Both the position numbers and the translations under genes were made by a program. From Auricularia sp. M13 (taxonomy: Eukaryota > Basidiomycota > Agaricomycetes > Auriculariales > Auriculariaceae): a stretch of 64,000 nucleotides of DNA. Numbering within the stretch: position 1 is the stretch's first letter; each line of letters opens with the position of its first letter. Positions 3,001 to 43,145 of this stretch are shown here, piece by piece. The stretch covers positions 186,001-250,000 of the forward strand of contig CM073193.1 in assembly GCA_037042915.1 (NCBI GenBank), in the 5' to 3' direction. The notes beneath the pieces were generated by a model that was not told the DNA's origin, ran no database searches, and saw nothing but the letters and a program-made list of their open reading frames with translations.

Positions 3001-6000
3001 AAACGCGCGGAATCCTCAGCCAGCCGCAGCCACGCCGCACCATCCATCTTCTCGGCGCAGCTATCGACGTAACGGAATGGACGACGATCCTGCTTGCCCC
3101 CTCGGCGCACGGTTTGAAAGGTTAGACTTTGTGTTATCGGTTATCCCGGGTTCGCGGATTGAATACTGCTGGCAGGGCCCCCGGACGCTCCTTACTTCAC
3201 GATTTCTGTGGTGGATTCGCACTTCTCGGCCCAAAGCTCAGCAGGATTCGCCACTACGTCCTGTCGATCAGCCCTGCCGTGCAAAACTGCCTATTGGGAA
3301 AATTTGCTGCTCAATCGGGATGCCGCGCAAGCAGTCAGATCAGCACCACGCGCAGGCATGCATACTCTCACGCCCCATTTCAAAGGCCGCGTCACAATGA
3401 CATTTCCTAGTCACATGTCCTAGTCGGTTGATTCGCCACTGAGAACCAGATGCACCATCGGGGAGGCGCGTGTTTGGGCCGGATACTCCGTCAGATCGCA
3501 TCGGATGTTCACAGGGTCGCCGGGGTCCAGGGACGAATAAGCTTTATCCCAGACCCTGCACGCCCACAGGCGGTGGGCGTGCCTCGACCGTTTCGACGCC
3601 TCGTGCGAATCATGACGTGCGCCGGCGTTCTCATGTCTACGGCGTTCGTATTCGAGGCGCGCCTTGAGAACACCAGGGCCGCGTGCAAGAAGACTGTCCG
3701 TACCGCGCGAAATTGCATTGAGACGCACGTCGCAGTGCGTGCCTGCTGCCCAGTGCCTCACGAGGATCCCGCCACTGCCAACCAGCAGATACAAGCGCAC
3801 TTCATGTTACATACGGACATGAATTGAGGGATCGGCTTCTATCTCAGTGACGTTATGACATTGGCGTTGAATAGATTCGCAGATGTGAACGAGTGGGGTG
3901 GTGCATTCTCACGTTTCCATTGGAACACAGGCTGACGGTTGCCACAGGTCCTGCCCCTTGGACGGCTTCGAGGAAGGCTTTGACGTTCTGAGTCTAGCCA
4001 CGAGAGTACAAGCTGCGGAGACAATGATGACTTAGAAATCAGCAATAGGGCAGAGGCAGTCGTTGAGGGTCAGACGCGCGCGTGCTGCCACTGGTGCGAA
4101 CTATGCCCAGTTGAACCATTTTCAGGCTTCCGAGCACACGCTTCGCACTTTCATCGACATTTTCGAAGCCCATTCGACGTTGAGCGCCTCGTCAACGATG
4201 TAGGAGACCGCGAAGTAACCATGCGTCGGGGTCTGTGTTGGACGGCCGCACGATTGTGCAACCTGCAGCCTCGTTGACGTCGACGCTGGCAGACAGACGC
4301 CGATTGAAGGCCACCTGGTGTGAAGAAGGCTGTCGAGGTGTTTTTGGTCTTGTTCGATTGACTTTTGTCATGTTATATTTAGTAAAGAAGACTGTACGAT
4401 CTGACGCATGCATAATCTATATCGCAACGGCAAATTCTGATCATATGGACGATCCTCCGCAGACGCTGACAGCGACATGAAACTCAGTTCACCTCACGAC
4501 TCACAAATTGCAACCCGTCGGTTCTGTGGATGGAGCAGCCTAGAAGCTCGCAAACATTGCGAAAGTTCATCCCTTTGGGTCACTCAACTCTGAGACTATT
4601 CCGCGTGATACAGTTCCAAGAAACCCATCCGGCGCCTTCAGCGAGTGGCAGACGCCGAGAGTGATTTTCCCGGCGCCTCTTGCACTTGGTTAGGTGGCGT
4701 ATGGACACCGAGACGTTGCAGTAATGAGTCTGGAGGTCTCACAAGTCCTCCGGCACTTCGGATCGAGTCTATTGGCGTGCGGGGCTGTGGATGCCCCCGA
4801 TTTCAGCACTATGCGCCGCATGCAAAGATGAGATAGTCGAGACTTGTACTTAACGTCGTCCCGGTTCGTGCTACCCAGGTATCGCGTTGACATCAGCGCT
4901 TCTTGCGTAGCAGTCACAGACACAAAGCCTGGGATTCCAGGCACACCAATCGATGGATCACGGCCAGAATCAGACCTCGAAACGTCAGAGTCTGGGCGTT
5001 TGGCTGTGAGAATTCCCAGAGATCAACGAGGGAAGGCGTAAAGGCAAATGCTGTTTGGTTTCTGCCACTGTCAGCGCCTCCTGCGTGGCAGACGCCGGCT
5101 GTCCGTCATATTCTGAACATGATCGAGATCAAATCTGAACTCTGGGGTCTCGCCGGGGATATAGGCCTTGCTAAATATTCCCCACTACGATGAGGGTGCA
5201 ACTGGAATGTTCCAAGACCAATGGATCGTCATAGTCAAGCTTGTTTACCACCGTATGCAACGAGTTTTATGGGCCGAATAACAACGCATGAACGCCTCAT
5301 GCACTGGCCCGCAGAAAGTCGCCGGATCGTCCAACTTACCGAGCTCCAAAATTGCCACTGCCACTGTCGCATCGTGCGCGCGCATGACCGGGAGTCGGGA
5401 CAATGGAAAGACGCCGCGCGGCTAGATCCCGCACCCATCCCCGATCTCATTCGCCACTGTCCCGGGTAGCGCACATGGCCGGCAAACTCGCTGGCATATG
5501 CACCATCTCCCTGTCCAGTTGCAAGCCGATTGCCGCTGGAGAGTCGCGTATGAATCGCTCAGCGTCTCAGCGGAGGTGATTGTGCGCAGTCTTGCCTGCG
5601 CGCGAACTGACGCTGAGAATCCTGGGATCAGCTCCTGGCCAGCCGATTAGGAGCCCTCCGCATTACGTGCGCAGATCATACCGTTAGTAACTTGTAGTGG
5701 TTCTGAGGCGTCGTCCTCGAGTCGGCGCGCCTGCGGCTGCATTCCGTCGACCAGCTGGCTGGGAGAGCTTTCCATGTCCCTAATCAGGGTCAAGGTACGT
5801 TCATTCATACCTCGATTGTCAGAGATGCCCTAAGAAATCATTCAGGGCGCCCCCAAGCAGCGTGGGAGTCTACCCGACGAGGGTGAAAAACTCAGGATCC
5901 CGACGACATGCTGAAAAATCTACCCAACTGTCAACAGCATGCCCTCCCGATTAAGAGCTCCTAGAGGACGGCGCTCTCCATCGCGCTGCTATATGTGTAT

Positions 6001-6412
6001 GAAGTGTTGGCGCTTGCGCGACGGCGACTAGTGGACGGAATCTGCATGCAAGATCTTTCATTACGTCCGGCGCTTGCACTGCACTAGACGCCCGCACACG
6101 ACCACATGCGTAGCCAAAAAAAGACGGAAGGTAACGTTCGTCAGGCGGACACTGGCTGAAGACAACGGCGTTCAAGTTTCTGTCGCACTTGGAGCTTCCT
6201 CGGAGATGAGCGCCTACTAGTAGCGCTGAACCGACAACGCCGCGGCCAAAAATGCCACACAGCCATGAGCTGGACCTACGAACTTCGAACAGGTCCCCCA
6301 GAGACCGCTTCTGAGATCTCAGATCCCAGCGCTTCAATGTCAGAGCGCGGCGATCGGTGAGCATGGATATGTCCAAGAACAACGAATGAAGCGATGTTTA
6401 CATACCAGAGAA

Positions 6413-6416
<4 letters not shown>
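1..6416 (+). repeat. Large repeat copy A, left part (about 7-kb family)
   Basis: This stretch matches 42925-49785 in reverse complement almost end to end. In the parts compared by eye roughly nine bases in ten agree, with small indels. Short open frames occur in both copies, but frames are broken differently in each and no domain is recognisable, so I see no gene. The window edge truncates it on the left. Near position 188 it lacks about 105 bp that copies B and C both carry, so copy A has a deletion there. The element resumes at 19948 after the LINE insertion. It could be a non-autonomous large transposon derivative (LARD- or Helitron-like) or a long-dead element. The ends give no decisive terminal structure. 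Confidence 0.85.
6401..6416. other. LINE target-site duplication, 3' side
   Basis: The 16-mer cataccagagaatctt occurs here directly before the poly(T) tract and again at 19932-19947 at the other end of the LINE. The same site without the LINE is seen in copy B near 42910-42930, in a slightly diverged form. Confidence 0.93.

Positions 6417-6452
<36 letters not shown>
6415..6452 (-). other. Poly(A) tail of the LINE (poly-T on + strand)
   Basis: An uninterrupted run of 38 T, the first two shared with the target-site duplication, sits at the 3' end of the minus-strand LINE. It is the expected product of target-primed reverse transcription from a polyadenylated RNA. Confidence 0.93.
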
Positions 6453-6453
<1 letters not shown>

Positions 6454-6618
6454 TGGAGCGTCAGATAGGGTTAGAATAACATAGTTATCCCTTGCCCATC
6501 CTTGCCCGCCTTGGCGGGCTGCTGGAGTTAGGACTGGGAGGCAGTCCATATGAAACGACGGCACCGACCGGAAAAATAGCCTTTAGCACACCTGTTGGGG
6601 TAGTGTGGGGCTTGAGAA

Positions 6619-9600
6619 TCAGCCGACACCATTCCTGGCGTCATTCCCCGTACCCACTAAAAAACCGGTCTGTTTATTCCAAAATTGTGCTTTCCAGTAA
6701 TCAGGGTTGGCACTGCGATCTATCCAGGTATCTTCATATAGTACATTGCACAGCGCCTTTGTCTTGTAACGATGTTTATTTGTGAGAAGTTTGTCTTGCA
6801 CGCGGCGTGATTCGCACATTTTCTTCCATCTCTTGGTCACTTCCTCTTCTGGCATGACCCAGTCTGGATCCTCAGCGTGCTCAATACGGGTTTCACACCT
6901 TATCTTCCAGATCAGGAAGGCGGATTCTGACACAATAATGCAGAAGATGCGCTCCAGCGCACGATTTCTTGCAGACCCCATGTGTCCTATTCGCATGGTC
7001 GCACAACCCATAATAACCCCGATGTCTATGTCTATGTTGATCTTGCGACTCTTCAGGAAGTCCTGGGCCAAGGCCCATACTGTTTCAAAACCTGAGCTCT
7101 CGCATTTTAGGAGGATGTGTTCCATGGTCTCAGTTTCCTGGCATGATGGACATGTGGCATATGACGCCCATGGTTCTGGCATTTTGCTGAAATAGTCGCC
7201 AACTTTGTGCGCACCATGGGCCATTTTCCAGAGGAAGTTGCGCACATTGCGCGAAAGGTTTTTGGATTGCAGACTCTGCCAGAATTGAGACTCCAGTGGC
7301 GTGAAGTCTGTCGCATGATGTACACGCCATTTTATTAGTTTGAGATTTTCCAGAGTCGCTTTTCGCTGTTTGACTTTTTTCTGGGCGAGCCATTTTATGG
7401 CTCTATGTGCTTCTCTCTGAGTGATATTTGCAATTGCGAGCCCAGGCTTATCGAAGGGCACCAGCTCCTCGAAGTCCGGATCAAAAGGTGGGCCCACTTC
7501 TGCAGCCACAAGGGCCATTTTTCTTGCCTCTCCAACCTGTGGCCAGTGCTTGACTCTGTTCTTGGCTATGCATGTGAACGAGGTCGGTGCACCTCTGGCA
7601 CGCAGAGCTGCAGCTGCTGCTCGCATGGCGTCTGCCTCATTTGGCAAGTCCATCCATCCAGTGGACTCATGCTTGGATAGATCGAGGGTGAGCATTCTTA
7701 CCACTGCTGCACTGGTGTTGATCATGTGCAGAGGGCGATGTCTTGGTGCCGTTGTTGCTGCCATTTTTACTGCTGTGGCTACACTGCGCACATAGGAGTG
7801 TGTATCCCCTGGGCAGAAGCCCACTTTGTCGTCGAAATCGTGTTCTGGAAAATATGCTGCAAAGCCGCCCTTGGCAATTGCTGAGTCTCCATTTATGATT
7901 GCACCGCAGACGACCACTTCCACAGCCTCTGCATCCTTGTCTCCATGAGGTCGTACAGGTGCCGCATCACATATGGTATCTGTCACCCCTCTCCCACTGA
8001 GGGCCATTGTGTCCACGAAAGCTCTGTAGTAGCTGGCCAGATCATCACCTTGGTGTAGTGTTGGGTCGAAAATTATTGGTTCACCAGTCTGAATTGCCTC
8101 CATGCGACCCTCTACGAAAGTTTCCCACATGCTGGAGTCTACTTCAGCCTGTGTGGTCGCAGTGTTCCACTTGGGCGCAAGCTCGCTCAGTATGTCACGA
8201 GCAAACTCCTGGCATTTGAAGGGGTTCTTGCAGCCCTCTGTTCTATCAGTCATGCAATTGTCGCATATGCAGGTACTAGACTCCTCATGGTCAAATTCAT
8301 CAGGTTCAGCTATCTCTTCGAGATCTTCAACCGTACAGACCGCATGAGAGGTCTTTAGGCATCGCACTTCTCTCCTGTATTCTCGCAGAACATCTGGTTG
8401 TCCCATGGCTGGGTGTGCCCATATGGGCATATCTTCCCTTATGTGCTCTGGGATCTGAGGCGCATCGAGGGCGACATTATATTTTGCTGCAACCCTCACC
8501 ATTTGCTGCAAGATGAAAGGTAGTTTCTGCTTATTGGGTCGCCACACCTGTTGGAAGGGGTTGATGCGTGCGTCGGTTGGCACCCATTTCTTGTCCTTGT
8601 TGATGATGGCAATTCTGAAGATGAAGTCTGCCAGGTAGGTCCACATTGGACGCGTCTCATCATTTTTGATATATGCGCCCACCCATTTCAGGTATTGCGC
8701 ATCATTTCTGCTCTCAGTGTGGAACAGGCCCAGACCTCCATGGTCTCTACCCAGGCGCAGAGTATCCATATTAATTGGGTGACGGCGAGAGCCTGCCCAG
8801 AGGAAGTCAAGCGTCATTTTATCCAGGCGTTTTTCCAGCTTGGTTGGCATGCCTTGGGCAGCAGTAAGGTACTGGGTAAATCCGCCTACCACAACCTGTG
8901 ATATAATGCTTCTACCATTAAGCGAGGGGCGCTTACTTTCCCATCTTTGTAGAGTTTCGGCAATTTTGTCCTGGATGGAGGACCAGGCATTCACATTCTG
9001 CACTCCATTGCCTGGCCAGGTACCAAGTATGCGAATGGGTTCGCCATCTCTGGCAATGCGCACTGAGTCTGGGATGGCAGGGTCCCCATCTTTGAGGCAT
9101 CTCGAATCCAGGACCTGTGTCCTGTACTCTTTTGTACCCATTGGAACGATTTCAGTTTTCTGCACATTGAAGCGAGCACCTGCTGCAAGGCACCACTGGT
9201 CCAGGATCTGGAAGAGGCGCTGGTAAGAGTCCTTCTCACTCATGTATACTGTTGTATCATCTGCATATAATGTGGCAATTAGTTTGCCCTCAATGCCATC
9301 AATCTTGTAGCCTTGCAGCTCAGAGCGTCTGAGCATAGCTGAGAGCGGCTCTATTGCCAAGTTAAAAAGCAAGCAGGAGAGCGGATCTCCCTGCCTGACG
9401 CCTCTGGTAACTTTAAACTTTTTGCTTGCAAAGCCGTTGATCATGACCACAGTGAAAGCATTTTCATACAGCGTCTTGACCGCATTCACAAAGTGCTCTG
9501 GGAAGCCAAAGGCTTTGAGAATCTTGTGCAGATAGTCATGTCTTATGCGATCATAAGCTTTTTCCTGGTCCAGTGCCACAATAGCGCCATTTTCTTCCTT

Positions 9601-11970
9601 GGCTTCAGCGTAATCAAGGATGAGACTCGTGATTTTGGAATGGTCTGTGATACTGCGACCTTGTACAAAGCCAGCCTGAGATTCATGAATGAGCTGGGGT
9701 GCAATGCTAGCCAGCCTGAGCGCCAGGGCCTTGGTGTAAATTTTGTAGTCTGTGTTGAGGAGTGTGATCGGCCTATAATTCGCGATCTCACTTCTATCTC
9801 CCTTCTTGTACAAGGGGCACAGCCAGCCTTCTGCGAATTTGGAGTCTGCTTCTAAGCCATGGAGTTCAATATCTTCAAAGACCATTGTCATCATACCCAC
9901 GACGTCAAAGGTTTGATCTTCTTTGCCCCTGGATTTACAGAACTGCTTGTGGATGACTTTCCAGAGTTCATATATGAGTCCATCTAAGCCAGCAGCTTTC
10001 CCACTCTTGGAGGACGCCAGAGATTCCGTTACATCCTCTCTTGATATTACAGCTGCTAGTTTGGCACGTGCACTTGCATCTGCGCGACGCTCCAGGTGAT
10101 CTAAGGCGTGCTCTATGGCTAGTGAGCGTGCAGCTTCATCTACGTCCAGATCTTTGGACTGGATCGAGTTGTGGTATTCTCCAGCCAAATCTGCCATATC
10201 GCGTGATTCCAGAACATACTGTGCTGGTTCGCACCCTGGGCGCTTGAGTTGCATCATGGTATCACGCGGTTTTTTACTTTTCACCCAACCGAACCAGGAC
10301 TTGGACATGGTCTCTGCTTCCAGCCAGACGCGTGTTGATCTATTCTGGAATATGGAGGTGTGCAAGCTATCCTGTAGATTGTAGATCTCCATTTCAGCTT
10401 TTCTGAGCTGCGCTTTTGCCTCTGTGATTTCATCAGGCGAGGATGCTGCTCTCAGGCAGGTTTTGGCAGAGTTTCTCTGTTCTTGCGCTTTTGTCAATTT
10501 TGTGCGCCTGGCGCAATTAAGATCTTTACTTCTGGCCTTGGCTGCCTTTCTTATCTGCTCTTTCAGACGTTCCCAGGTACGCTGGGGGTTGTTGAATGCT
10601 GTCCTGCCCAAGAAGGCGATGGTGTCCATCTCTGACTGGGCGCTTTTGCCAAGTTTGTACACCTCTGACATGAAAACTTTGTCCCTTGTTAGGTTCTCAG
10701 ACATGGTCCAGCGTCCAGGACCAATGTCTGGAGCATCTCTGCACACTAGTTCCACAGAGATTCTGCTGTGGTCATATGTATTTATGCCAGACACATTAAT
10801 TTCCCACTGTCTGCTGACCGCACGCATTTTGTTGGTCAGGTAGATCCTATCAATGCGAGACATGGAGGACAGAGACATGTTTCGCCATGTCCATTCGATG
10901 CTATCAGGGAAGGTGTCTCTCCACCCATCTGTGACTTTCAGATACCTTTTGAGGTCTCCGAAGGACTGAGGTGAATCAATCTTTGACAATTTTGCAGGGA
11001 AGCGATCGATGGGGTCCTCCACTTGGTTGAAATCTCCCAGCATGACATCTGGTTTGGGAATCTTGCCCTTTGCACGCCTTAGAGTCTTTTTTAGAGTCTC
11101 CCAGAACTCTTTATTTGCCTTAGCAGTGGTGGGCGCGTATATGGCGAGGACGACCAGGCTTGAGTCCCTATGCCATTCGATTTTGCACACTATCGCTCTG
11201 CCTGGTACCAGGACATGAGTGTCAATGGTGCGATAATTTGTAAGTAGCTTGTTGAAGACCAGCGCAACGCCCCCCGCGCCCGTGGGGTTTGCTGGCAGCG
11301 CAGTATTCTCTACATGTAGATGTTCATAGTAGCGATGAATTTCATCCAAGTGCTGCGCATCAAGGTGAGTCTCCTGAATGGCCATGATGCCAATCTTCTG
11401 ACTGCGAATGTCTTCTGCAATCTTTTTCCATTTGATGCTGCCAGCTACCCTCTGTGCGCCCCGGCCTTTCATATTCTCAGAGGCCAGTTTGATATAGGCC
11501 TTGGTGCTCTTCTTTGAGCGCATCTGATTGTCCTGCATTATTGGTAATACTGCATGGTTTGAGTAGTTATTCCCAGCATCAGATGGTGTCTGTACATATG
11601 CTGAGCTCGACCCTACCACTGATCGTGGCGTAGTTAGGTCGCTTGCATCAGTGCCGGATTTGCCAGACTGATGCGCATCTTGACGCCAGCCTTCTGGTGT
11701 CAGAATGTTGTTCATCACGAACTCTCCCCCCGAAGCGCTGCCTCCTGCTTCCTGAGCACCATCATCCACAGAGGGAAGGGCAGCATCAGAAACCTCTGGT
11801 TCGGTGCTCTGGAACGTGTAACCAGACCGATCGATTGTCACCTGAGATGAGTTGTTGGTGATAATTGGGCTTCGCGCTGTAGATCTTGCAGAGAGGGGCC
11901 AGCGCACCCATCTCGCACAGCTGGCATGCCGGCCAGCACGGTGAGCTATGCCAGTCAGTACTACTCGCAC
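6619..11970 (-). CDS. LINE ORF2 polyprotein: APE endonuclease, reverse transcriptase, RNase H-like, zinc-binding
   Basis: This 1783-residue frame supplies the nicking and reverse-transcribing activities of the LINE. Residues about 160-410 form an APE-type endonuclease with QETH (199-202), GDFN (312-315), SRIDRIYL (371-378) and a DH pair (400-401). The reverse transcriptase covers about 650-990, with SGKAAGLDG, the LDQEKAYDRI block, RGVRQGDPLS and the catalytic YADD (902-905). A cysteine cluster (about 1234-1253) and an RNase H-like fold (about 1350-1490) follow; the acidic residues expected in the latter are not visible. Near 1607-1623 is a CPSC...H...C knuckle of the reverse-transcriptase zinc-binding type. 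No frameshift or stop interrupts the frame. The exact start is uncertain because the first 150 residues are low in recognisable structure. Confidence 0.93.
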   Translation of the reverse strand: MRVVLTGIAHRAGRHASCARWVRWPLSARSTARSPIITNNSSQVTIDRSGYTFQSTEPEVSDAALPSVDDGAQEAGGSASGGEFVMNNILTPEGWRQDAHQSGKSGTDASDLTTPRSVVGSSSAYVQTPSDAGNNYSNHAVLPIMQDNQMRSKKSTKAYIKLASENMKGRGAQRVAGSIKWKKIAEDIRSQKIGIMAIQETHLDAQHLDEIHRYYEHLHVENTALPANPTGAGGVALVFNKLLTNYRTIDTHVLVPGRAIVCKIEWHRDSSLVVLAIYAPTTAKANKEFWETLKKTLRRAKGKIPKPDVMLGDFNQVEDPIDRFPAKLSKIDSPQSFGDLKRYLKVTDGWRDTFPDSIEWTWRNMSLSSMSRIDRIYLTNKMRAVSRQWEINVSGINTYDHSRISVELVCRDAPDIGPGRWTMSENLTRDKVFMSEVYKLGKSAQSEMDTIAFLGRTAFNNPQRTWERLKEQIRKAAKARSKDLNCARRTKLTKAQEQRNSAKTCLRAASSPDEITEAKAQLRKAEMEIYNLQDSLHTSIFQNRSTRVWLEAETMSKSWFGWVKSKKPRDTMMQLKRPGCEPAQYVLESRDMADLAGEYHNSIQSKDLDVDEAARSLAIEHALDHLERRADASARAKLAAVISREDVTESLASSKSGKAAGLDGLIYELWKVIHKQFCKSRGKEDQTFDVVGMMTMVFEDIELHGLEADSKFAEGWLCPLYKKGDRSEIANYRPITLLNTDYKIYTKALALRLASIAPQLIHESQAGFVQGRSITDHSKITSLILDYAEAKEENGAIVALDQEKAYDRIRHDYLHKILKAFGFPEHFVNAVKTLYENAFTVVMINGFASKKFKVTRGVRQGDPLSCLLFNLAIEPLSAMLRRSELQGYKIDGIEGKLIATLYADDTTVYMSEKDSYQRLFQILDQWCLAAGARFNVQKTEIVPMGTKEYRTQVLDSRCLKDGDPAIPDSVRIARDGEPIRILGTWPGNGVQNVNAWSSIQDKIAETLQRWESKRPSLNGRSIISQVVVGGFTQYLTAAQGMPTKLEKRLDKMTLDFLWAGSRRHPINMDTLRLGRDHGGLGLFHTESRNDAQYLKWVGAYIKNDETRPMWTYLADFIFRIAIINKDKKWVPTDARINPFQQVWRPNKQKLPFILQQMVRVAAKYNVALDAPQIPEHIREDMPIWAHPAMGQPDVLREYRREVRCLKTSHAVCTVEDLEEIAEPDEFDHEESSTCICDNCMTDRTEGCKNPFKCQEFARDILSELAPKWNTATTQAEVDSSMWETFVEGRMEAIQTGEPIIFDPTLHQGDDLASYYRAFVDTMALSGRGVTDTICDAAPVRPHGDKDAEAVEVVVCGAIINGDSAIAKGGFAAYFPEHDFDDKVGFCPGDTHSYVRSVATAVKMAATTAPRHRPLHMINTSAAVVRMLTLDLSKHESTGWMDLPNEADAMRAAAAALRARGAPTSFTCIAKNRVKHWPQVGEARKMALVAAEVGPPFDPDFEELVPFDKPGLAIANITQREAHRAIKWLAQKKVKQRKATLENLKLIKWRVHHATDFTPLESQFWQSLQSKNLSRNVRNFLWKMAHGAHKVGDYFSKMPEPWASYATCPSCQETETMEHILLKCESSGFETVWALAQDFLKSRKINIDIDIGVIMGCATMRIGHMGSARNRALERIFCIIVSESAFLIWKIRCETRIEHAEDPDWVMPEEEVTKRWKKMCESRRVQDKLLTNKHRYKTKALCNVLYEDTWIDRSANPDYWKAQFWNKQTGFLVGTGNDARNGVG

Positions 11971-12229
11971 AGTCCGGACTGTGCGATTTCCATCAGGCTT
12001 CAGCGTCTCCGCGCGGCTCGCTCTTGGTCTAAATAGACCTCCGCTCTCTCCTGCTGCTTCCTGTCCCCGGAGGTCAGTAAATTAGGCAGCAGGAGGGCAC
12101 TAGCTGGGATTGTGCGTAGCCAATGTTAGAGGTTGCCAGGGCCGTTGCCGGTTCAGGGCACTGTGCATCTCTATTCTTTTAAAGGGAGATATGTTTATTT
12201 GTGTATACTGACACATTATCTCCCTTGAC

Positions 12230-13850
12230 ACGTTCATGGCGTGGTTGTTTCGTGTATATTGCATGTATCTGTGTGGGATTTTGTAGTGTGCGCGCCTGCA
12301 CGAGGTATCGTGGTGTACGTGTCTCTGTGGGGGTCCATGGTGCGCACACCTGCACAAGGAATTGCAGTCCACACACTTGCGTGATAGGTTGCGGCGCGCG
12401 TATTGCACAAAAGAAAGCGGTGTGCGCACCTGTGCGAGAAGGTGCGGTGCACACGCCTGCGCGAAAATTACGGTGCGCACTTCTGCGTGAGATTGTGCGG
12501 TGCGCATGCCTGCGCGAGGAATTCTGGTGCGCACATCTGCGCAAAGGAGTTGCGGCATGCGCGTCGACGCGAGAGGTTGCGGTATACGTCTCTGTGTGGG
12601 AGAGCACGGTACGCGCACCTGCGCGAAGAGATGTGGTGCGTGCAGGAGGTCTGCGCGAGAAGGCGCGGTGCGCGCATACGCGTGAGGGAGCGCGGTGCGC
12701 GCCCCTGTGTGAGAGGTTATAGTGCGGGGAAGCGCGGTGCGCGCGTCTGCGCGGAGAAAACACGGTATGCGCGTCTGCGCATGAGGTGCGGTGTGCGCGT
12801 CGGCGTGGGAAGGCGCAGTGCGCGCCGTTGCGAGAGGGCTTAGTGCGCGTGTCAGGGCGGGAGCACACGGTATTCGCGTCGGCGTGAGAACCCACGGTAT
12901 GCGCATCAGCGCGAGGGGGAACGGCGACACGGCGTGGGGTCGTGCTTGCACACGTTGGCGCGGGAGAGCGCGACGCGCGCGTTGGTGTGCGAGAGTGCGA
13001 AGTGTGCGTTGGCACGAGAAGAGGCGGTGCGCACGCCGGCGAGAGGGGCGCGGTGCGCATGCCAGCGTGGGGGGAAAGTGGTAATGCGCGCTGGCACGAG
13101 AGAGTGCGTTGCGCGGGTTGTCGCGAGAGACCGCGTTGTATTCGCCGCTGTGAGGAGCTGCCGCTCCACGGGCTAACAATGCGCAGTGCCAGTGCGTGTG
13201 ATTGCTTAGAGTGTGTTGTCGCGAGGGAGTCTCCGTGTGTGTGCCGTCGCGAGAGGTTATGGGGCGCGCGTCAGCTCGAGAAATTACGGAGCGCGTCGCT
13301 GGCGTGAGGAATCACGGTACGTTGTCACCGTGATAAACCGCGGAGTGTGCGTCGGCACGAGAGGTCGCAGGGCGCGGGTCGGCCAGGGCAACCACGGGGC
13401 ATGGCGCCAGTGTGAGGAATCGCGGCGCATGCGCTGTCGCGATGAGTCGCGGTGTGTTCTTTGGCGCGAGAGGTCACTGGGCGCGCGCTGGCTTAAGGAG
13501 TCACGGTATGTGACGTCGACACGAGGGGCCGTGCTACATGCGCTGTCGCGAGAGGCTGCAGTGAGTGTGCCGGCACGAGAGATCATAGAGCGCGCGTCAG
13601 TTCCAGGAATTACGGTACGCTGTGCCAGCGCGAGGGGTCGCAGTGTGTGTATTTATGCCATGGATTGCGGACTGCGCATCGGCGCGGGGTTTCACGGGGG
13701 GGCGTTGGCCTGAGAGGTCGTAGAGCGCATCGCGAGTGCGGGGGATCGCAGGACGCACGCTGTCGTAAAAGGCTACGGCGTGCGCGCCGGCGCGAGGGGT
13801 CCTAGGGCGCGCGCCGGCTCGAGGGATCACGGTATGTGGCTTCGGTGTGG
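12230..13850. repeat. 27-bp minisatellite between LINE ORF1 and ORF2
   Basis: About sixty degenerate tandem units of close to 27 bp fill most of the gap between the ORF1 stop and the ORF2 start. A typical unit reads on the + strand like ggtgcgcacctgcgcgagaa followed by a G/T-rich end. The left and right halves use two diverged versions of the unit. Because 27 is a multiple of three, frames stay open for long distances on both strands and encode a nine-residue periodicity; the longest is 359 codons on the minus strand at 12100-13179. I do not call these genes, since the openness follows from the period and not from selection that I can see. Confidence 0.85.
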
Positions 13851-14176
13851 GAAGGAGAGAGCTGCTATGTATTCTTTTGCGTGGGATTCGCTACGCGTGT
13901 GGTTGTGCGACAGTGTGCGGAACTTTTGTATTGTGGGCACGTTTTACGAAATCAGTTGGGCCCCGCGCTTTATTCGTTCACAAGAGGGGGATTATACGAG
14001 TCAAGATGGGTCCGGCGTGTCAAGAGAGTGCTGGCGATGCGCGGGGCCATGTCAGCGATCAGGTTTGTGAGGAGGGGCGGGGCGCGAGCAAGAAGGTGTG
14101 GGTGAGGGATGACAAGGGGTGGAGGTGGCAAGAAAGTCCAGGCTCGGGGTCATACGGCAGTGATGAGACGCAGGCT

Positions 14177-16087
14177 TCAGAAGGCGCGGCCACGGTGCCC
14201 GCCTCCATTTCCGCGGCCAGCTCCTCCACGCCCACCTCCGCCTCGTCCACCGCGTCCTCGCGAGCTGCTGGCGTTGTTGTTTGCTGCGTGATTCCCGTTC
14301 GAAGTCGACGTTGCGCCGTGCGCGTTTGTCCAGCCGTCGATACGGGCTGTCGGGCACTTGCCCGTGGGATGGCCGGCGCTCCCGCAGACAGAGCACTCCC
14401 ATGGCTGCCTGCGCATGCGGCCATGTCCTTTGAAGGGGTGCCTGATGAGGATGTTGCGCACCGCGTCTCGGAGCTCCGTCAGCAGGTCCTGCGGCAGGAA
14501 GTCCACGTCCGCGTGGACGTTGTACTCTTTGATCGACTCCGTGCTCGCCGTCGTAGTGAGCGAGCGAATGGAGACAGAGTCGAGCACGGCGCGGATTAGC
14601 AAGTCCGCCCCGACCTTGTTGCGTGACGCGAACTTTTCCAGCGGCGCGCGGAAACTCGGGTTCGTTTCCCACGATGGCCTGATGCTCGCGCGCAGGTGTT
14701 CGCCTCTCAGTTGGGTGTTGGTGACGGTGCCGAGGTGGCCTGAGGCGAGCAGGGTGAACCTGAATGTCGTGATGCTCGCGTTGTCGAGGACGTAGTGGCG
14801 GCGATAGCAGAGCGCATCTTCCTGCTGGCGCGTGATTCCCGTCAGTAGGAAAGTGTTTTTGCGGACCGTCTTGTTGCTGCGCGGGTCTGTTTCCGCGCGC
14901 GTAACTTGAGGCTTGCTCGTCGGTAGAGCGCCCTTGACCGCCTTGGCGAGTTTCTGGATCGCTGCCAGCGGGTGCATTGACGACGGGTCTTGTCCTCCGA
15001 TGCTGTCGCAGACGAAGACTACTTTTGGTTTCTTGAGGTCTGACCACGCCGACCGTTGTGTCGGGCATAGGTTGGCGAGGTGGGCGTTGGCGGCCATGCC
15101 ATCGATGCGGCGGTTGTTTCCATTCGAGGCGACGTGGACCTTCCTCTCGCTGAAAGCAGGGTGTAACTCGTAGTCGTCGTCCGCTTCCTCGTCATCCGTG
15201 TCTTCTAGCTCCTCCTCGTCGGACTCCTCCACGATGTCGTCGTCCGACGAGGGCGCACGCCACGGTTGAGCCGCTGGGAGGTCTATGAAGGAGGCGGCGT
15301 CGTCGCCGTTAATCGGGTCGTCGATGTCCATGTCCGGGTACAGGGGTTGCCCTCGGCGCCCTGGCGGATGTTCCGCGCGCGCCGCTGACTTGTCTTGGCG
15401 GCGCTGCAGACGTTGTTCGGACGGCGAGTTTGGAGGGCCTCGACGCGACTGATCGAACGGCGCCGGGTCCGCTTCCGCGAACATGTCTTGCACCATCACC
15501 GGGGTCGCGGCCAGCGGCCTGCCGCGACGCTGCTCGCCCGGTTCTGGCTCTCGTAGGTGCGTGGGAATAGGTGGTCCGAACTTGCGCGGTGTCGAGTCTT
15601 GGACGCGCGACCAGTCTATGGGCGTCGCGGCCGGGCTCTTCGGTACAGGCTGCAAGGCGTGCTGATCGTGATCCGTTGCGGCAGCCTGGACTTGGGGGCG
15701 TTGCACCGCAGCTTGACGCGGCATTGGTGCAATTGAGCGTCCAGCGAAGACCCGCCTGACTGGGACCTTGTTCGCGTTCTTGGCGTCGTCGTCGCCTGTC
15801 TCTTGGCGCTGCAATGGCGGCCAGTCGGTTTCGTCAAGTCCCTCTATCGAGAGGCGGCGTCTCGAGCGCCGTTCATCGGCGATAAGGCGGGATTTTTCGC
15901 GGTCGCCGGGCGTAGCGGCCTCATCAGCCGTTCGAGTGGTCGCGGGGCGCGTGGGCGACAGCTCTGGGGCCGCCTGGGCAGGAGGTGGCGACGATGGGAG
16001 GAACGAGGCCGCTGTCGTGGGCTCAAGTCGGTCTGCCGCGAGTTCCACCGGCTGCGTCTCGGGCACAAGGACGACGCCTTCAGTCAC
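14177..16087 (-). CDS. LINE ORF1 protein with CCHC zinc knuckle
   Basis: This 636-residue frame is the likely nucleic-acid-binding partner protein of the LINE. The N-terminal half is rich in Pro, Arg, Ala and acidic residues, including an acidic run DESDEEELEDTDDEEADDD-like near the middle. Residues about 565-578 form a CX2CX4HX4C zinc knuckle (CSVCGSAGHPTGKC). The last 30 residues are an RGG/Gly-rich tail, typical of RNA-binding proteins. It lies upstream of ORF2 on the same strand, separated by 2.2 kb that is mostly minisatellite, an unusually long ORF1-ORF2 gap. The first Met at 16087 was taken as start; the region upstream has no convincing in-frame extension. Confidence 0.88.
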   Translation of the reverse strand: MTEGVVLVPETQPVELAADRLEPTTAASFLPSSPPPAQAAPELSPTRPATTRTADEAATPGDREKSRLIADERRSRRRLSIEGLDETDWPPLQRQETGDDDAKNANKVPVRRVFAGRSIAPMPRQAAVQRPQVQAAATDHDQHALQPVPKSPAATPIDWSRVQDSTPRKFGPPIPTHLREPEPGEQRRGRPLAATPVMVQDMFAEADPAPFDQSRRGPPNSPSEQRLQRRQDKSAARAEHPPGRRGQPLYPDMDIDDPINGDDAASFIDLPAAQPWRAPSSDDDIVEESDEEELEDTDDEEADDDYELHPAFSERKVHVASNGNNRRIDGMAANAHLANLCPTQRSAWSDLKKPKVVFVCDSIGGQDPSSMHPLAAIQKLAKAVKGALPTSKPQVTRAETDPRSNKTVRKNTFLLTGITRQQEDALCYRRHYVLDNASITTFRFTLLASGHLGTVTNTQLRGEHLRASIRPSWETNPSFRAPLEKFASRNKVGADLLIRAVLDSVSIRSLTTTASTESIKEYNVHADVDFLPQDLLTELRDAVRNILIRHPFKGHGRMRRQPWECSVCGSAGHPTGKCPTARIDGWTNAHGATSTSNGNHAANNNASSSRGRGGRGGGGRGGAGRGNGGGHRGRAF

Positions 16088-16704
16088 TGTGCAAGGCGAT
16101 TAGTATCGGCCCGAGGCTCCCTGTCGCAGAGGGCATACCATCGCCGTCGCCGTTCATGGTCGCGGCCACTGGTTCCAGGGGAGCAGCTCTATGATGGCCG
16201 CGTTCGCGTGCGTAGAGGGCTTCGGACAGGAGGGAGCATCTTGCGTGGGATTCGCGTAGCCATATAGACCAGCAGCAGGGCGCAGACAGTTTCTGGCGTA
16301 GTGGGGGCGAAAGACGACGGGAGGGGGCGGTCCGCGCTCGCCCTGGGGGACTCGTCGTCGAGGCATTACTGCTTGCATAGGGCGGCCCCTTGGACTGCCC
16401 TGATGTCCGCTCCGTTCTGCTCATCGAAGCAGCTCGGCGGCTACGTCGTGTCATCGTCAGCCAGCACGTCCATAGACTTGTACGGGACGATCAGGATGGC
16501 GGGCGCTGGGTCGGACTTTCAATACCAGGCCGCGTCATCCTTCTTGTCTCCGCCCATCACGGAGCATCAGACTGCGATCTGCTCCAGCCGTTGGGCCTGT
16601 CTGGCTGCAGATGGCCCGTCTGTGAATCGATTTATTTATTTCTAATTTACGGCAAGGCTTCGTGGTCGCTCCAAATCGGTTGCGAACTTGGCAATTCGGC
16701 ATTT

Positions 16705-17343
16705 TTACTTCGGGACGTGCTCCGGCTCGTTTCGGCCCGTCTCGGTTTCTAAAACTCCGGCCCGCTCCGGCTCCGGTCTTCGGGATATCCCTGTCATAGG
16801 GTCCGTTGTTATGCCCGTGTCATCCCGGGATATAGCGATTGCCGGCTCTTCCCTCGTACGCTCCTGGTTGGCTCGGCGAGCTCTGGCCGATTTTCTCTTC
16901 TCCCGCCAGCGCAGCGTTTCGTTGTAGTCGATTACGAGGTGCGTGCCGTTGATGGCCGACACGTGCACGTCCTCGCACTCCGGCTTCTCCAGCCAGTGCA
17001 TGTCCCGCCGGTCCCGTTGACTCCAGCGTCCGCCGCATCCTCCTTGGCAATAGTACGTGCGTTTTTTTTGATATGGAGCTGATTGTGTGAGTGGCATGGC
17101 TCGGAGAACGTCGTCTATGTGTGCAGCGGCACGTCTCGTCCTCGGCGAGCTCGGCCTTCGTGGTGGCAGGCTACTCGTCGCCGTGCTGGGATATGGCATT
17201 GACGATGCGCTCCGGTCATCGTGCAACTCCTTCGTGTTCACGGCGCGCCACGTCGGCGTCGGGGAGCGGCTTTGGGGGTCCCCTTGCTGTTGTGCCTGAG
17301 GCGGCGTCCCGGGATTCAGTGCTGCGTGAGTGGGGCGCTGCAT
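16705..17343 (-). CDS. Possible extra ORF (ORF0) in the LINE leader
   Basis: This 212-codon open frame lies upstream of ORF1 on the coding strand of the LINE. Its N-terminal half is Ser/Pro/Arg-rich. The middle holds a Cys/His cluster (YYCQGGCGG ... DMHWLEKPEC) that could bind zinc as a CX3C...HX5-7C module, followed by a basic Arg/Glu-rich stretch. I do not recognise the family. It could be a genuine third ORF, a captured host exon, or a chance frame in GC-rich DNA. Support from position is moderate, from conservation none. Confidence 0.4.
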   Translation of the reverse strand: MQRPTHAALNPGTPPQAQQQGDPQSRSPTPTWRAVNTKELHDDRSASSMPYPSTATSSLPPRRPSSPRTRRAAAHIDDVLRAMPLTQSAPYQKKRTYYCQGGCGGRWSQRDRRDMHWLEKPECEDVHVSAINGTHLVIDYNETLRWREKRKSARARRANQERTREEPAIAISRDDTGITTDPMTGISRRPEPERAGVLETETGRNEPEHVPK

Positions 17344-19931
17344 CTTAGGGGCAGTGCCTTATCTCTGGCCCTCTTTTATGGTCTTCTTGATTCCTGAGTC
17401 AGGGGGAAATTGCGGTTTGGGCCCCTGCATATACGTCATCTTGGCGCCTGGTTTTATATGGGACGTGAGCAATTCGCCTCTCAGCGCCTTGAACTTCTAC
17501 GTCAGAGGGGCGAGGCTCCAGGAGAGGGCGTTTTTGCTATTGACTGGGTTGCTATGAGTCGTGCGGGTTCGCTATCGTCGTCTCTTACCCATTCAGTCTT
17601 GGCTAAAAGCCATCTGCTCGCGCATCGGTCTTTTTGGCACTTTGCCATAAAGGAGGGCGTTCCTTTTAGGCTTGTCGTGGAAACGTTCCCCGCTGCTTGT
17701 GAACTTGGGATGTGTCGCCTAATTTCGTAAGTGCGTTCTGGCAGGGATTCGTCGCTCACGATTTTTAGGACTGTCGTAGACTGTCTTTGCGGAGTGCGTA
17801 TCGGAGTTTTGGTACAGAACACGCCATTTCTGACCCTCGTCGTCCAGCACACTGTTCGTGGTCACCGCCTGGTTCGCTGCTATTCGCATCTCTGCTATGC
17901 GCTCGGTCCGACCACAGCTTGCGTCTGTATGGACTGTCTCGAGGTACGTCGTCTAATTTTAAATTTCCCCCGCTAATTCCGCAGTTTATACCCCATAATG
18001 CCCTGCCATACGCATGGACTTCACTCGTGTCCCGTTGTTCTTTATGCAGCGGTGTTTGAAAAGGGAAGGTGTCCAACTGCGCGGGGAAGCGTGGTTGAAC
18101 GTTGGCGTTGACAGGTCCGTTCCCCGACCCGAAGCGCGTTCCGGGCGCTCTCGCGTGTTATTTTGCTCACACAGACTTGGCGCTGCAGGGCTCTTCTTAT
18201 CGTGTTACATAGCATGATTCTATTGCAGGAACAGCGCTTCTATCGTCCCGCACATTGTGTTACTGTCTCTCGCGGAGCCTCCTTCGGCGATTTGCATTGC
18301 CCGCATGCAAGGTCCTTGGATTCCGGCCGCACCGTTATCCCCGTCGGTCCACGAGCTCCATTCAGGAGTGCGTAGTGGTTCGAGCGTCAGGTACGTCGCA
18401 GTGAGTATGCTTTCCGTCCGACTCGTGCGACAGACCTTCTCAGGTTCTGTCTGTATTTGGCGCCGCATGAATGCAGGGTCGCCGGTGCTGGCCGGCGTGA
18501 GCTCGAAATAATATTTCGCGGCTCGCTCTGCCGCGGTCGAAAGCAGCGCCAGTCCAAGTCAATCGGAGGAAGGGATGTACATCTCACGTCTCCCTGCTCG
18601 AGCTGACTGGTACGCCGCGTGGCGTCCTTGGCTGGCCATCCTCAGACAGTGCGCTTGCCTGCATTGTGTGTCACGGGCGGCGTTCGTTTGGGCGTCGGCG
18701 TCTGGGCATCGTGACTACTTCGCACCATTGGCCCATGAGCAGAAGAGCTGGCCTGTCACCTGGAGACATGTTGGCTCTGGCACCTGCTTCCTGGGCACTG
18801 TGTTGTTTCGCGATTTGCATCGTCGCGCCCAGATACACTCTTCCTCGTATTCCACCCTCGTCCGCTGGCCTGAGTCGTGGTCCAGAGCCTGCCATGACGT
18901 TGTATGGTGGTAATCGCATGCTCGAGGCCCCAGAGGTGCGCGTGCTAGCTGCTGGGCTTTCCCATTGGCCTTGCCTCGGCTGGATTTGTGCGAGAGACGT
19001 ATAAAGGGCTCGTGCTGTATGCCGACTCCTTCCATATCCACTTCAGCCCCATCGCCCTCGAATGTGTCGTCCCACTCGCGTCTGGACTATATTTCATTGC
19101 GGTGTGCGTTCTACTACTTTTCTCTGCCGCCGGGCTGATTTTGGTTAGGATATGATGTGGAGCTGGTTCCTTCCCAACGTCCTGCACCCTTGTCTCAACC
19201 CCGCGTGCGCCGGAGCTTCATGGGAGGCGCAGGTTTCTTGCGAATGCGCCCTGTGCACAACCGAAGTGAGTACTTTTTATTTTAAATTCCTCGCCATTTT
19301 TTAATTCTTTCAGACGCCCAGAAACTCCCGCGTCATCCACACCGCAGATAATTGCCCCGCGCATCTTCCTCGTCCTGTTTGCCAATGCACTCTTACTTTC
19401 CGGTGCCCCAACCACGGGTTTTCTCATTTCGGCGGCTTTGGGCGCGGGGGCGGATCTGGATCCGGCCCTTCCGCTAGCCCCGCTGACCTTTAGATCTCCC
19501 CATCGTGCGTGGTCCTTATCGTTACTGCTGCTGGACTTCATTACTGATGCGCTTCAGATTACGAATTGCGCTCGCGATGTGTCCGATCCTTGTTTTTCTT
19601 GTCTTTGCACGCGCGCGTGTTCCTCTCGCCTGGGTACGCGCTCTCTTCCTCGAGCTGCGCCCCTTCTTGTACTTCATCGCTGCTGGTCCGCATGGTGTGA
19701 ATAAATGTCATTTGCGTGCTCTTCTGATCACTCGATCGTCTGCATCGTGCCGTACTAGTCGCTTATTTTCTCGAGGGACTACACGGTCTTCGATACGCTC
19801 AGATTCTTCATATTCGACAGAAAATGAGTTGTATTTACGTGCAGATGGTCTCTAGCACGTAGAAAAGGACGTTTGGTATGCTCTAGACCTGGTGTGGTCG
19901 ACGGACATGGTGGTCCGGGAAAGAGCCGTCC
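17344..19931 (-). other. LINE 5' leader, no convincing gene
   Basis: About 2.6 kb between the possible ORF0 and the 5' boundary of the LINE. Several minus-strand frames of 80-116 codons occur (17502-17852, 18220-18468, 18715-19041, 18945-19187, 19218-19541). The last has a protein-like composition (charged, Lys/Glu pairs) but no known motif. The region presumably contains the internal promoter of the LINE, though I cannot point to one. Confidence 0.5.
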
Positions 19932-19947
19932 CATACCAGAGAATCTT
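19932..19947. other. LINE target-site duplication, 5' side
   Basis: Perfect second copy of cataccagagaatctt, joined directly to gatcgaatcgcg, which continues repeat copy A exactly as in the LINE-free copy B. Confidence 0.93.
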
Positions 19948-20256
19948 GATCGAATCGCGTGTGCGACGGTAAATCTCCAAAGCGCCGGTCGGCAACGACG
20001 CAAGCGGACGAGCGTGAGAACGCCGCGGAGGAGAACGAGGGTTCGCCTTGCGCGCCGCTGCAATATTTTTTCAGATCTACCTTCCTGGGGTCAGCGAATC
20101 AGGCGTCCATTATATGCCTGTATCTGCATGCTCAACTCAGTCGCCGGCGTCGTACGCTGGCCAGGGTACGTAATGGGATCATGCTGATCGGCGTGCAGGG
20201 CGTCATGACTCATGACTCATGATGCGAAAGAACAACGAACGCGTGAGAACCACTGA
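19948..20256 (+). repeat. Large repeat copy A, right part
   Basis: This continues copy A after the LINE and matches the reverse complement of 42581-42905. Homology stops at ...gagaaccactga (20256); the corresponding point in copy B is 42581. The tract catgactcatgactcatga, a short tandem repeat, is shared by both copies. Confidence 0.85.
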
Positions 20257-25203: not shown

Positions 25204-26143
25204 ATGTCCAACGTCTACGTGAGTGCCCGCTCTCCGTACCTCGCGATCCCGCGCGATGGGCTGCGATTCGAGTCGACCTGCGAGCGCTCGCCCCTGAATG
25301 CGTCATCGATGCTGATAATCTCGTGGCATCGTCGTCGCTGCTGCTCAGCGACCAGAGCGTCGTGCACGATGCGCGTTGTGAGCGCTAGATCGCGCAAGAC
25401 GTCATCGATGCTCGTCATCGCGCGCCCCATCGTCTCCTCCCTGCCCCTCTCCCCTCTTCCCTCGCTGACGCTCGCTCACTGCACCGGTGCAGTTCGACAT
25501 CACGATCGACGGCGCGCCCAAGGGGCGGATCACGTTCAAGCTGTACGACGACGTGGTGCCCAAGACGGCGAAGAACTTCCGCGAGCTCGCGACGGGCCAG
25601 CACGGCTTCGGCTACGCCGGCTCGTCCTTCCACCGCGTCATCCCCAACTTCATGCTCCAGGTCGGGACAGCGTCAGCTGGACCTATCTAATTGTCGCTGA
25701 TGACTTTGAAGGGCGGCGACTTTACCGCCGGAAACGGCACCGGCGGCAAGTCCATCTACGGCACCAAGTTTGAGGGTGCGTTCTCCTAGCAGTGCACATT
25801 GCATCCTCGCTGGCACTCCAGCATGCCCTTTGCTAGCGCTCGCACAGGGCCCTCGCTGGCACTCCCTAGCCCTCCCGCACGTCGCTGACGCTCCGTGCCA
25901 GACGAGAACTTCAAGCTGACGCACGACCGCCCGTACCTGCTCTCCATGGCCAACGCGGGCAAGAACACGAACGGCTCGCAGTTCTTCATCACCACCGTCG
26001 TCACCGACTGGCTCGACGGCAAGCACGTCGTCTTCGGCGAGGTCGTCGAGGGCAAGCAGCTCGTCAAGGAGATCGAGGCCCTCGGCTCGTCCAACGGCAA
26101 GACCAAGGGCAAGATCACCATCGCCGCCTCTGGCACCGTCTAG
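25204..26143 (+). CDS. Cyclophilin A-type peptidyl-prolyl isomerase, first tandem copy
   Basis: A cytosolic proline cis-trans isomerase of 162 residues in four exons: 25204-25218, 25493-25660, 25712-25775, 25902-26143. The single domain carries the expected active-site set: Arg53 (FHRVIP), Phe58, Gln61, Phe111 (SQFFITT), Trp119, the cyclosporin-contact tryptophan, and His124. Exon 1 encodes only MSNVY and is followed by a 274-nt first intron. No targeting peptide is present. The gene sits head to tail with a second cyclophilin of identical length 1 kb downstream, and shares its first three intron positions. Confidence 0.95.
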
Positions 26144-43087: not shown

Positions 43088-43145
43088 GCGTTGTCGGTTC
43101 AGCGCTACTAGTCATCGCGGCGTTGTCGGTTCAGCGCTACTAGTA
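43088..43145. repeat. Short tandem duplication private to copy B
   Basis: gcggcgttgtcggttcagcg plus ctactagt is present twice in a row here, but once in copy A near 6215-6245. Confidence 0.8.

Follow-up and report, generated by a model that had tools for sequence, protein, structure and literature searches.

A three-ORF LINE in the genome of Auricularia sp. M13 probably starts its second protein, ORF2, at a non-AUG codon with the help of a pseudoknotted RNA acting as an IRES, and probably carries this RNA and ORF2 in a cassette that has been joined to old 5' modules. The window, that is, the whole stretch of 64,000 nucleotides that was analysed (contig CM073193.1, positions 186,001 to 250,000), holds the element on its minus strand (Table 1). 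Its parts run in the order 5' end, ORF0, ORF1, minisatellite spacer, RNA element, ORF2, 3' UTR and poly(A); the RNA would place the ribosome at the non-AUG codon of ORF2, immediately 3' of a pseudoknot that resembles a tRNA. The ends of the element, its length across the family, the conservation of ORF0, the step in age between its 5' and 3' parts, the covariation of the RNA and the frame that ties this RNA to ORF2 are read from the sequences themselves, and the IRES function is deduced from them.

Table 1. Features of the element and its target site; positions are those of the window
Feature	Positions	Strand	Remarks
Whole LINE	6417-19931	minus	13.5 kb, between the TSD copies
TSD, element's 5' side	19932-19947		exact 16-mer CATACCAGAGAATCTT
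Conserved 5' end, ~66 nt	19866-19931	minus	common to seven other close copies
ORF0, 212 aa	16705-17343	minus	66 matches across the genome; alignment; dN/dS
ORF1, 515 aa from a non-conserved ATG	14177-15724	minus	frame open up to 16099
Spacer with degraded 27-nt minisatellite	12190-14176	minus	length differs among copies
Module boundary, start of near-identical 3' module	12158-12190		10/13 comparisons
Hairpin domain D1 of the RNA element	12048-12095	minus	outer stem covaries, 14 lineages
R1, pseudoknotted RNA core, putative IRES	11874-12049	minus	3' pseudoknot ends at predicted first codon
Putative non-AUG N-terminal extension of ORF2	11716-11877	minus	open frame, RNA 3' end to first in-frame AUG
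ORF2 from first AUG: endonuclease, reverse transcriptase, zf-RVT	6619-11715	minus	domains, open frame
Poly(A) tail, 38 nt	6415-6452	minus	T run on the plus strand
TSD, element's 3' side	6401-6416		exact 16-mer CATACCAGAGAATCTT
Unoccupied target site	42889-42945	minus	inside inverted segmental copy B

Ends and length of the element

Judged by its sequence, the segment between the two TSD copies is one complete LINE insertion whose ends are exactly defined, and the endonuclease and reverse transcriptase of ORF2, the poly(A) tail and the TSDs are those of an APE-type LINE, or non-LTR retrotransposon. The preliminary description had reported a perfect 16-bp duplication, a 38-nt poly(A) and an empty site in copy B, all of which were recovered: inverted copy B contains the target once, lacks the LINE and carries a small indel within the target itself, and the arms adjoining the site are 93-96% identical. 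The conserved 5' end has a predicted fold with compensatory changes (judged by eye) and gave no match in Rfam.

The same 5' end is present in 7 of 13 other close copies, six of which also have a poly(A) and a TSD and measure 12.6-13.7 kb; the remaining 6 of 13, in which no 5' end was located, fall outside the comparison of lengths from the 5' end. The element is thus not unusually long within its genome's family. Since close copies with the same 5' end are equally long, the leader and the spacer are not private insertions, and nesting as the source of the length is ruled out by the six full copies. Full-length copies without leader or spacer were looked for and none was found among the seven with a located 5' end: all seven have 7.3-8.8 kb from 5' end to ORF2, although the distance between ORF1 and ORF2 varies from 1.35 to 2.85 kb (ten copies, window copy included). 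A TSD was also sought in seven distant elements, of which L022, L026, L027 and L028 measure 10.9-12.9 kb between candidate TSD and poly(A), the TSD of L026 being only 9 nt long; L023 (candidate TSD within ORF1), L024 (5' end different from the others) and L025 (candidate TSD an 11-nt simple sequence) were left out of the length comparison. The 14.1 kb of L015 is an estimate only, as its 3' end was not found.

ORF0, ORF1 and ORF2 proteins

The 3.8-kb leader is not a mere leader, because it holds ORF0, which alignment shows to be conserved across much of the LINE set of this genome and which bears a zinc-finger-like motif, C-x3-C-x12-H-x6-C-x3-H. The five residues of this motif are invariant in 8 of 8 aligned sequences, the first spacing being one residue shorter in L032, and dN/dS is 0.31 in the one pair computed (window versus L007). 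Of the 11 close copies with an ORF0 match, 5 carry stops inside the matching stretch. Searches with ORF0 in Pfam and among solved structures returned weak zinc-finger hints only, and its single-sequence fold prediction (pLDDT 47) is too poor to use. It is hardly credible that the element is just an ordinary LINE of Tad1 type whose leader is untranslated, as first described: its endonuclease, reverse transcriptase, CCHC-bearing ORF1 and TSDs would suit such an element, but the conservation of ORF0 and its dN/dS would not.

The statement that ORF1 and ORF2 are both open holds for ORF2, with 1698 aa counted from the first ATG, and for the 515 aa of ORF1; the N-terminus of the latter, however, appears frame-shifted in the window, because the match to the ORF1 start region of L007 sits in another frame, with two 1-nt gaps between, and the ATG of the window copy corresponds to a Leu in L007. 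ORF1 has a CCHC knuckle close to its C-terminus, and nothing credible was found for it in Pfam or among solved structures. Its divergence is not a matter of rapid protein evolution, since synonymous sites diverge too (one pair). The minisatellite of the spacer exists as reported, albeit in degraded form (period about 27).

An RNase H domain in ORF2 is a trait of the Tad1 clade. PF03372 and PF00078 were detected in 15 of 15 ORF2 proteins and a Pfam RNase H in none of the 15. Residues 1193-1412 of ORF2 gave just two unrelated-looking matches among solved structures (E 0.047 and 1.4), and the single-sequence model of the region after the reverse transcriptase (pLDDT 36) is unusable.

A pseudoknotted RNA in a fixed frame with ORF2

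In 13 distinct sequences, 93.5% of the 633 cells of R1 are paired, the structure being drawn from the same sequences on which pairing is counted, and changes on both sides occur in 30 of 49 pairs, whereas shuffling gives 15.6 +- 2.3 (none of 500 shuffles reaches 30) and sliding gives 4-9. Helix 3, an internal pseudoknot, has all its cells paired and covaries in 3 of 4 pairs; in helix 6 no more than 73.8% of the cells pair. Helix 9, the 3'-terminal pseudoknot GCRCUG/CAGYGC, is paired in all 13 sequences; five of its six pairs are invariant and the sixth covaries, being A-U in 6, G-C in 6 and G-U in 1. L027, which was not part of the model, reaches 65 bits and has retained both pseudoknots, the internal one in a variant of its own (GGAUC/GAUCC), and L021 has no R1 RNA in the stretch examined. 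For D1, none of 5000 arm re-pairings was as stable as the native set. Rfam gave no match at E<=1 in 6300-20100; for the window's RNA stretch, at E<=10, it gave no IRES and no ribozyme, only five weak matches (three microRNAs, one snoRNA and one lncRNA; E 1.2-9). Eight other loci yielded three matches at E<=1, none of them an IRES or a ribozyme and all outside the RNA (a tRNA in L014, mir-466 and CrcZ), and no HDV family was matched in 6300-20100, the RNA stretch or the 5' end.

ORF2 keeps one phase to CAGYGC in 26 of 27 copies and 13 of 14 lineages, and over 368-596 nt its frame has no stop in those 26 copies, against 1-15 in the other frames; the exception, L014, has two stops and also no AUG. 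No single frame can be read across the RNA in every lineage, and 11 of the 13 frame-keeping ones have an in-frame stop inside it. In L022, L023 and L027 the frame is open without any in-frame AUG before the endonuclease domain. The excess of synonymous change is clearest in the ORF2 frame in 6 of 8 pairs, with little contrast between frames in the other two, and these pairs share lineages. In the window's family the AUG at 11715 lies 158 nt past the 3' end of the RNA, is present in 14 of 14 close copies examined and could be used; polymorphisms in the extension number 3, 5 and 4 by codon position in this family, with no third-position bias. The predicted first codon is CAA in 12 of 14 lineages and CGA in the window's family. 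Because the RNA is pseudoknotted and covaries, the frame of ORF2 is fixed relative to it and three lineages lack an AUG, we infer IRES-driven, non-AUG translation of ORF2 that would resemble that from dicistrovirus IGR IRESs.

Alternative roles for the RNA

R1 could instead serve packaging or cleavage. It could also be a binding or priming site for the ORF2 protein (cis-preference, second-strand synthesis), comparable to the R2 5' RNA, and ORF2 would be translated in some other way. The RNA adjoins the start of the retrotransposase gene as part of the conserved 3' module, and an RNA with a pseudoknot to which an R2 protein binds is named in PMC12222951, which fits; nevertheless, we consider a binding site unlikely, since it leaves unexplained both the locking of the ORF2 frame to the last base pairs of the RNA in 13 of 14 lineages and the in-frame stops just upstream combined with missing AUGs. 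Leaky scanning, or termination and reinitiation, at AUG 11715, with the open frame upstream being accidental, seems rather improbable. Termination-reinitiation has been reported for SART1 and put forward for mammalian L1 (PMC5972666), which likewise express the second ORF of a LINE by a non-standard route, and the AUG is present in all close copies examined. The fungal LINE differs, however, in its AUG-less lineages and in the 1.35-2.85 kb that separate ORF1 from ORF2; moreover, every frame is interrupted within the RNA in at least one lineage, and the extension, with its absence of stops in 26 of 27 copies, is homologous to that of the AUG-less lineages.

Cleavage followed by non-AUG translation has been proposed for the HDV-like ribozymes of R2 and similar elements. 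Release of the ORF2 RNA by a self-cleaving ribozyme, with translation then beginning on a non-AUG codon at the newly made 5' end, would agree with the pseudoknots, the strict 3' boundary and the three AUG-less lineages, and HDV-like ribozymes, described in several non-LTR elements, also put a structured RNA beside the beginning of the retrotransposase gene. Such a ribozyme is nonetheless very unlikely here: the RNA is internal, between ORF1 and ORF2, its strand order seems unlike that of the HDV fold, it is apparently folded in another way, no Rfam ribozyme family matches at E<=10, and cleavage would split an RNA that needs full copying, yet full-length copies flanked by TSDs exist.

A young 3' module behind old 5' halves

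In the copies of the element, old 5' halves are followed by a single young 3' module, near-identity beginning about 443-473 nt before the ORF2 AUG. Between the window and L007, dS is 0.75 for ORF0, 0.96 for ORF1 and 0.13 for ORF2. In 10 of 13 comparisons the boundary falls within the same stretch of about 30 nt, at the 5' edge of the RNA element, and the TSDs enclose the entire chimera in 6 of 7 other copies with a located 5' end. A cassette of RNA, ORF2 and 3' UTR has probably come to sit behind several old 5' modules; the simplest route would be a template switch near the minisatellite while the RNA was being reverse-transcribed, after which the chimeras would have spread. Since ORF2 would bring its own entry site, the cassette could work behind any 5' half.

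Gene conversion that homogenised ORF2 among resident copies, with no chimeric RNAs involved, would likewise yield near-identical 3' halves. We regard it as possible but doubtful, given that ORF2 dS is 0.05-0.06 within 5'-module groups (four pairs) and 0.11-0.17 between modules, so that the 5'/3' combinations have been stable, and given that the boundary keeps so narrowly to the edge of the RNA.

Relation to known systems and significance

Starting translation on a knotted RNA without an AUG is best known from some insect viruses. Type 6 (IGR) IRESs are defined by a core of ~178 nt, several pseudoknots, one of them 3'-terminal, and a non-AUG first codon (PMC10516663), and factor-free, tRNA-mimicking IRESs have been described from RNA viruses. 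When compared in sequence and predicted structure, the LINE RNA is similar to them in core length, in having more than one pseudoknot, and in the 3'-terminal pseudoknot directly before a presumed non-AUG codon, mostly CAA. It differs in sitting in a fungal LINE, in lacking an Rfam match, in its extra 5' hairpin domain D1, and in that the one candidate found for equivalents of nested PKII/PKIII and SLIV/SLV is an internal pseudoknot (helix 3). Among the matches listed, no paper dealt with an IGR-like IRES carried by a retrotransposon.

The extra ORF recalls L1 ORF0, also located in a 5' region. L1 ORF0 is antisense, whereas the fungal ORF0 is sense and keeps its zinc-finger-like motif in distant copies; it represents an additional, unexplained LINE protein. 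Differing histories of ORF1 and ORF2 have a parallel in CR1/L2 LINEs, for which a reticulate ORF1 is reported (PMC4120745), but the fungal swap is recent and lies within a single genome, where several 5' modules meet one young ORF2 at a common breakpoint, so that it can be dated and mapped.

It is conceivable, though speculative, that a genome-encoded, factor-free, tRNA-mimicking IRES drives non-AUG translation of the retrotransposase, that its portable cassette underlies repeated swaps of 5' halves, and that such LINE RNAs could be kin to, or a source of, the viral type 6 IRESs. The origin of the latter is stated to be unknown (PMC12221177), and a mobile genomic RNA whose 3' pseudoknot and start are similar would offer a place to look for it. 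At the level of LINE biology, the way in which the second protein is made is, to our knowledge, understood for few elements, and a covarying RNA that is frame-locked to the retrotransposase gene, without any AUG in some lineages, would provide a compact, testable system.

Exact ends and length within the family

The genome of Auricularia sp. M13 (52 Mb in 14 contigs, with the window at C1:186001–250000) was searched, and 28 of 205 candidates were scored, comprising the window ORF2, 13 close copies (97–98% amino-acid identity to it) and 14 distant copies (51–70%). A LINE insertion with exact ends, as proposed in the preliminary description, is borne out by the perfect 16-bp target repeat, the poly(A) and copy B, the inverted segmental duplicate in which the target is present once, with a small indel and without the LINE. 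The unoccupied site stems from a large inverted duplication that the LINE interrupts and whose scattered arms are 81–98% identical (25 pairs shown). Two diverged direct-repeat pairs, 1.7–1.8 kb apart and 73 and 80% identical, also occur in the window.

The element had been considered unusually long as well, which does not hold within this genome. Its opening 63–100 nt are present again in seven of the 13 close copies, with 7.3–8.8 kb between the 5' end and the ORF2 AUG versus 8.2 kb in the window; in the remaining six, the 5' end was not located. Six of these seven have a located poly(A) and target-site duplication (TSD), L015 being the exception, and total 12.6–13.7 kb; five of the TSDs match exactly, and the sixth, in L007, was recognised by eye and is separated from the element by 11 additional nt. 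Four distant elements measure 10.9–12.9 kb. Full-length copies devoid of the leader or spacer were looked for and none was found among the seven sharing the 5' end. The length is thus not odd in this genome. L013 and L015 are partial copies, and L011 and L012 carry one stop each. The ORF1–ORF2 distance varies from 1.35 to 2.85 kb across ten copies, this stretch containing a degraded 27-nt repeat. The first 66 nt are predicted to form a junction fold in which inspection by eye shows compensatory changes from one subfamily to another, and L026, L027 and L028 have similar starts. The LINE copy L014 has a tRNA gene (6814–6923, 51.6 bits) in its 3' flank, ~250 nt past the poly(A).

Features of the LINE and its surroundings in the window
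Feature	Position	Strand	Remark
LINE 5' end	19931	minus	sequence boundary
First 66 nt	19866–19931		predicted junction fold
Poly(A)	6415–6452	minus	T run on plus strand
Target repeat	6401–6416 = 19932–19947		16 bp, exact
ORF0	16705–17343	minus	212 aa; 66 genome matches
First conserved RNA motif	12153
ORF2 aa 1149–1168	8212–8271	minus	Cys cluster
ORF2 aa 1193–1412	7480–8139	minus	where RNase H is expected
Inverted-duplication arms	29–20138 and 42722–49753		scattered
Direct-repeat pairs	25489–27863		two pairs

Coding capacity

The leader, previously regarded as excess length, contains the coding frame ORF0. By position, its matches lie upstream of ORF1 and cover 11 of the 13 close copies, of which five are interrupted by one or two stops within the matched stretch, as well as many distant ones. 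Against L007, ORF0 has a dN/dS of 0.31. An alignment of eight elements reveals invariant C99, C103, H116, C123 and H127, together with G102, R113, W117 and P121, the first Cys–Cys gap being one residue shorter in L032; the arrangement resembles a C2H2/C2HC finger, with weak database hints (zf-C2H2 in two of eight members, best E 0.049; zinc-finger chain, E 0.11). In the distant element L035, ORF0 is preceded by another frame with an ORF0-like finger (sense 3318–3803), and ORF0-like matches (30–32%) occur in 191-aa open frames at C1:3432119, C9:904048, C7:119527 and C4:2587636 of the same genome (G000), which may lie outside the LINEs under study.

ORF1 has a dN/dS of 0.12, and its C-terminus carries a CCHC knuckle and a Gly/Arg-rich tail. 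It had been described as open along with ORF2, which needs qualifying, as the region that matches the L007 start is out of frame with the rest, two 1-nt gaps intervening, and the first ATG is not conserved; the window copy may therefore be not fully intact. In the distant elements L029, L030, L031, L034 and L035, ORFs lie shortly before or overlap the main ORF1, which suggests a split or frame-shifted ORF1.

Behind the reverse transcriptase, ORF2 has a Cys cluster (C-x-C-x2-C-x7-C-x5-C) invariant in all 15 aligned proteins. The conserved region that follows gave no Pfam RNase H match in any of the 15, and the residues aligned by eye with the expected catalytic positions are not acidic; it is possibly an inactive RNase H-like domain.

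Old 5' halves and a young 3' module

Between the window and L007, dS is 0.96 for ORF1, 0.75 for ORF0 and 0.13 for ORF2. Twelve of the 13 other close copies yielded an ORF1, at 53–86% identity by piece (60 and 86% within L008), versus 97–98% for ORF2, and the leader aligns to the window in long pieces of ~68–80%, in patches or not at all. Identity is 88–96% at 350–400 nt before the ORF2 AUG and 46–68% at 450–500 nt before it in 12 of 13 comparisons, the exception being L015, where it falls only to 84%. In 10 of 13 comparisons, BLAST matches start 443–473 nt before the AUG, and in L006, L013 and L015 further upstream; under more lenient scoring, most starts move to the query edge, 474–476 nt before it. 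Upstream identity defines the groups L008/L009/L010, L002/L004 and L003/L005, and more loosely (76–88%) L006/L013; ORF2 dS is 0.05–0.06 in four pairs within the first three groups and 0.11–0.17 in pairs computed between modules. An older case is L025/L032, with ORF1 at 63% to the window over aa 119–515 (51% over the whole alignment) and ORF2 at 52%.

Since the TSDs enclose whole chimeras, the joins either predate those insertions or arose by later conversion. The 5' halves may have been joined to the ORF2 module by template switching of the reverse transcriptase, an origin that is favoured over conversion. Reticulation of LINE ORF1 is already in print (PMC4120745).

A structured RNA and a probable ORF2 start without AUG

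The 3' module starts 5–37 nt before the first conserved motif of an RNA that folds and whose sequence 12 of the 14 distant copies share at 62–70% identity. From 13 distinct sequences, nine helices were drawn, including two pseudoknots first read by eye, with pairing in 93.5% of 633 cells. Two-sided changes affect 30 of 49 pairs (29 of 43 without the 3' pseudoknot) compared with 15.6 after shuffling and no more than 9 after sliding the structure, the latter being a control that favours the structure because it was drawn from the same sequences. Helix 6 is paired in 73.8%, and the 3' pseudoknot has six pairs, of which five are invariant. Of the two distant copies not used for the model, L027 reaches 65 bits (E 7e-18) and retains both pseudoknots in variants of its own; L021, possibly truncated, gave no RNA match, and a stop interrupts its frame 123 nt ahead of the endonuclease motif. 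Helix 1 carries a double change in the close copy L015. All 14 lineages have a further hairpin, D1, in front of the core, its native set of arm pairs being more stable than any of 5000 re-pairings. Rfam gave no match at E≤1, and neither IRES nor ribozyme among weaker matches.

In 26 of 27 RNA-holding copies (13 of 14 lineages), ORF2 stands in the same phase relative to CAGYGC, the final pairs of the RNA, and is free of stops across the 368–596 nt to the endonuclease motif; L014, with two stops, is the exception. The ensuing peptide starts with AR in the window's family; the 12 other lineages that keep the frame have (A/V)Q, followed by P in 10 of them. Of the 13 frame-keeping lineages, 11 have a stop in this frame within the RNA, in L019 with two codons between it and CAA, and no single frame stays free of stops through the RNA in every lineage. 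L022, L023, L027 and also L014 lack any in-frame AUG before the endonuclease motif, and L025 has one, 9 nt before it. Judging from this phase, the stops and the missing AUGs, ORF2 coding appears to begin at the 3' edge of the RNA, without AUG. Among eight pairs, which share lineages, six show a clear synonymous excess in this frame (pS 0.67–0.79, pN 0.33–0.50) and a weaker one in the other two; in the two pairs with the window, the contrast between frames is small. The window's family has an AUG 158 nt past the RNA, and its extension holds too little polymorphism for a decision.

A putative ribosome entry site and its rivals

In the mechanism proposed, the loop of the last hairpin would pair with CAGYGC to form the 3' pseudoknot, GYG would act as a codon-like triplet, and CAA (CGA in the window's family) would be the first codon read. 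In layout and presumed function, the RNA resembles the type 6 intergenic (IGR) IRESs of dicistroviruses. It is not assigned to that class, whose nested 5' domain may have no counterpart here and whose curated models gave no match. Three less probable alternatives are an RNA bound by the ORF2 protein, a ribozyme and reinitiation; each fails to account for the frame lock or for the lack of AUGs. Unusual ORF2 translation (PMC5972666) and type 6-like IRESs in further virus families (PMC12221177) have been published; among the literature matches listed, none concerned an IGR-like IRES in a retrotransposon. With an entry site of its own, ORF2 would need nothing from upstream, and the 5' halves could be freely exchanged; we infer in this way a link between the entry site and the swapping of 5' halves in this LINE family.
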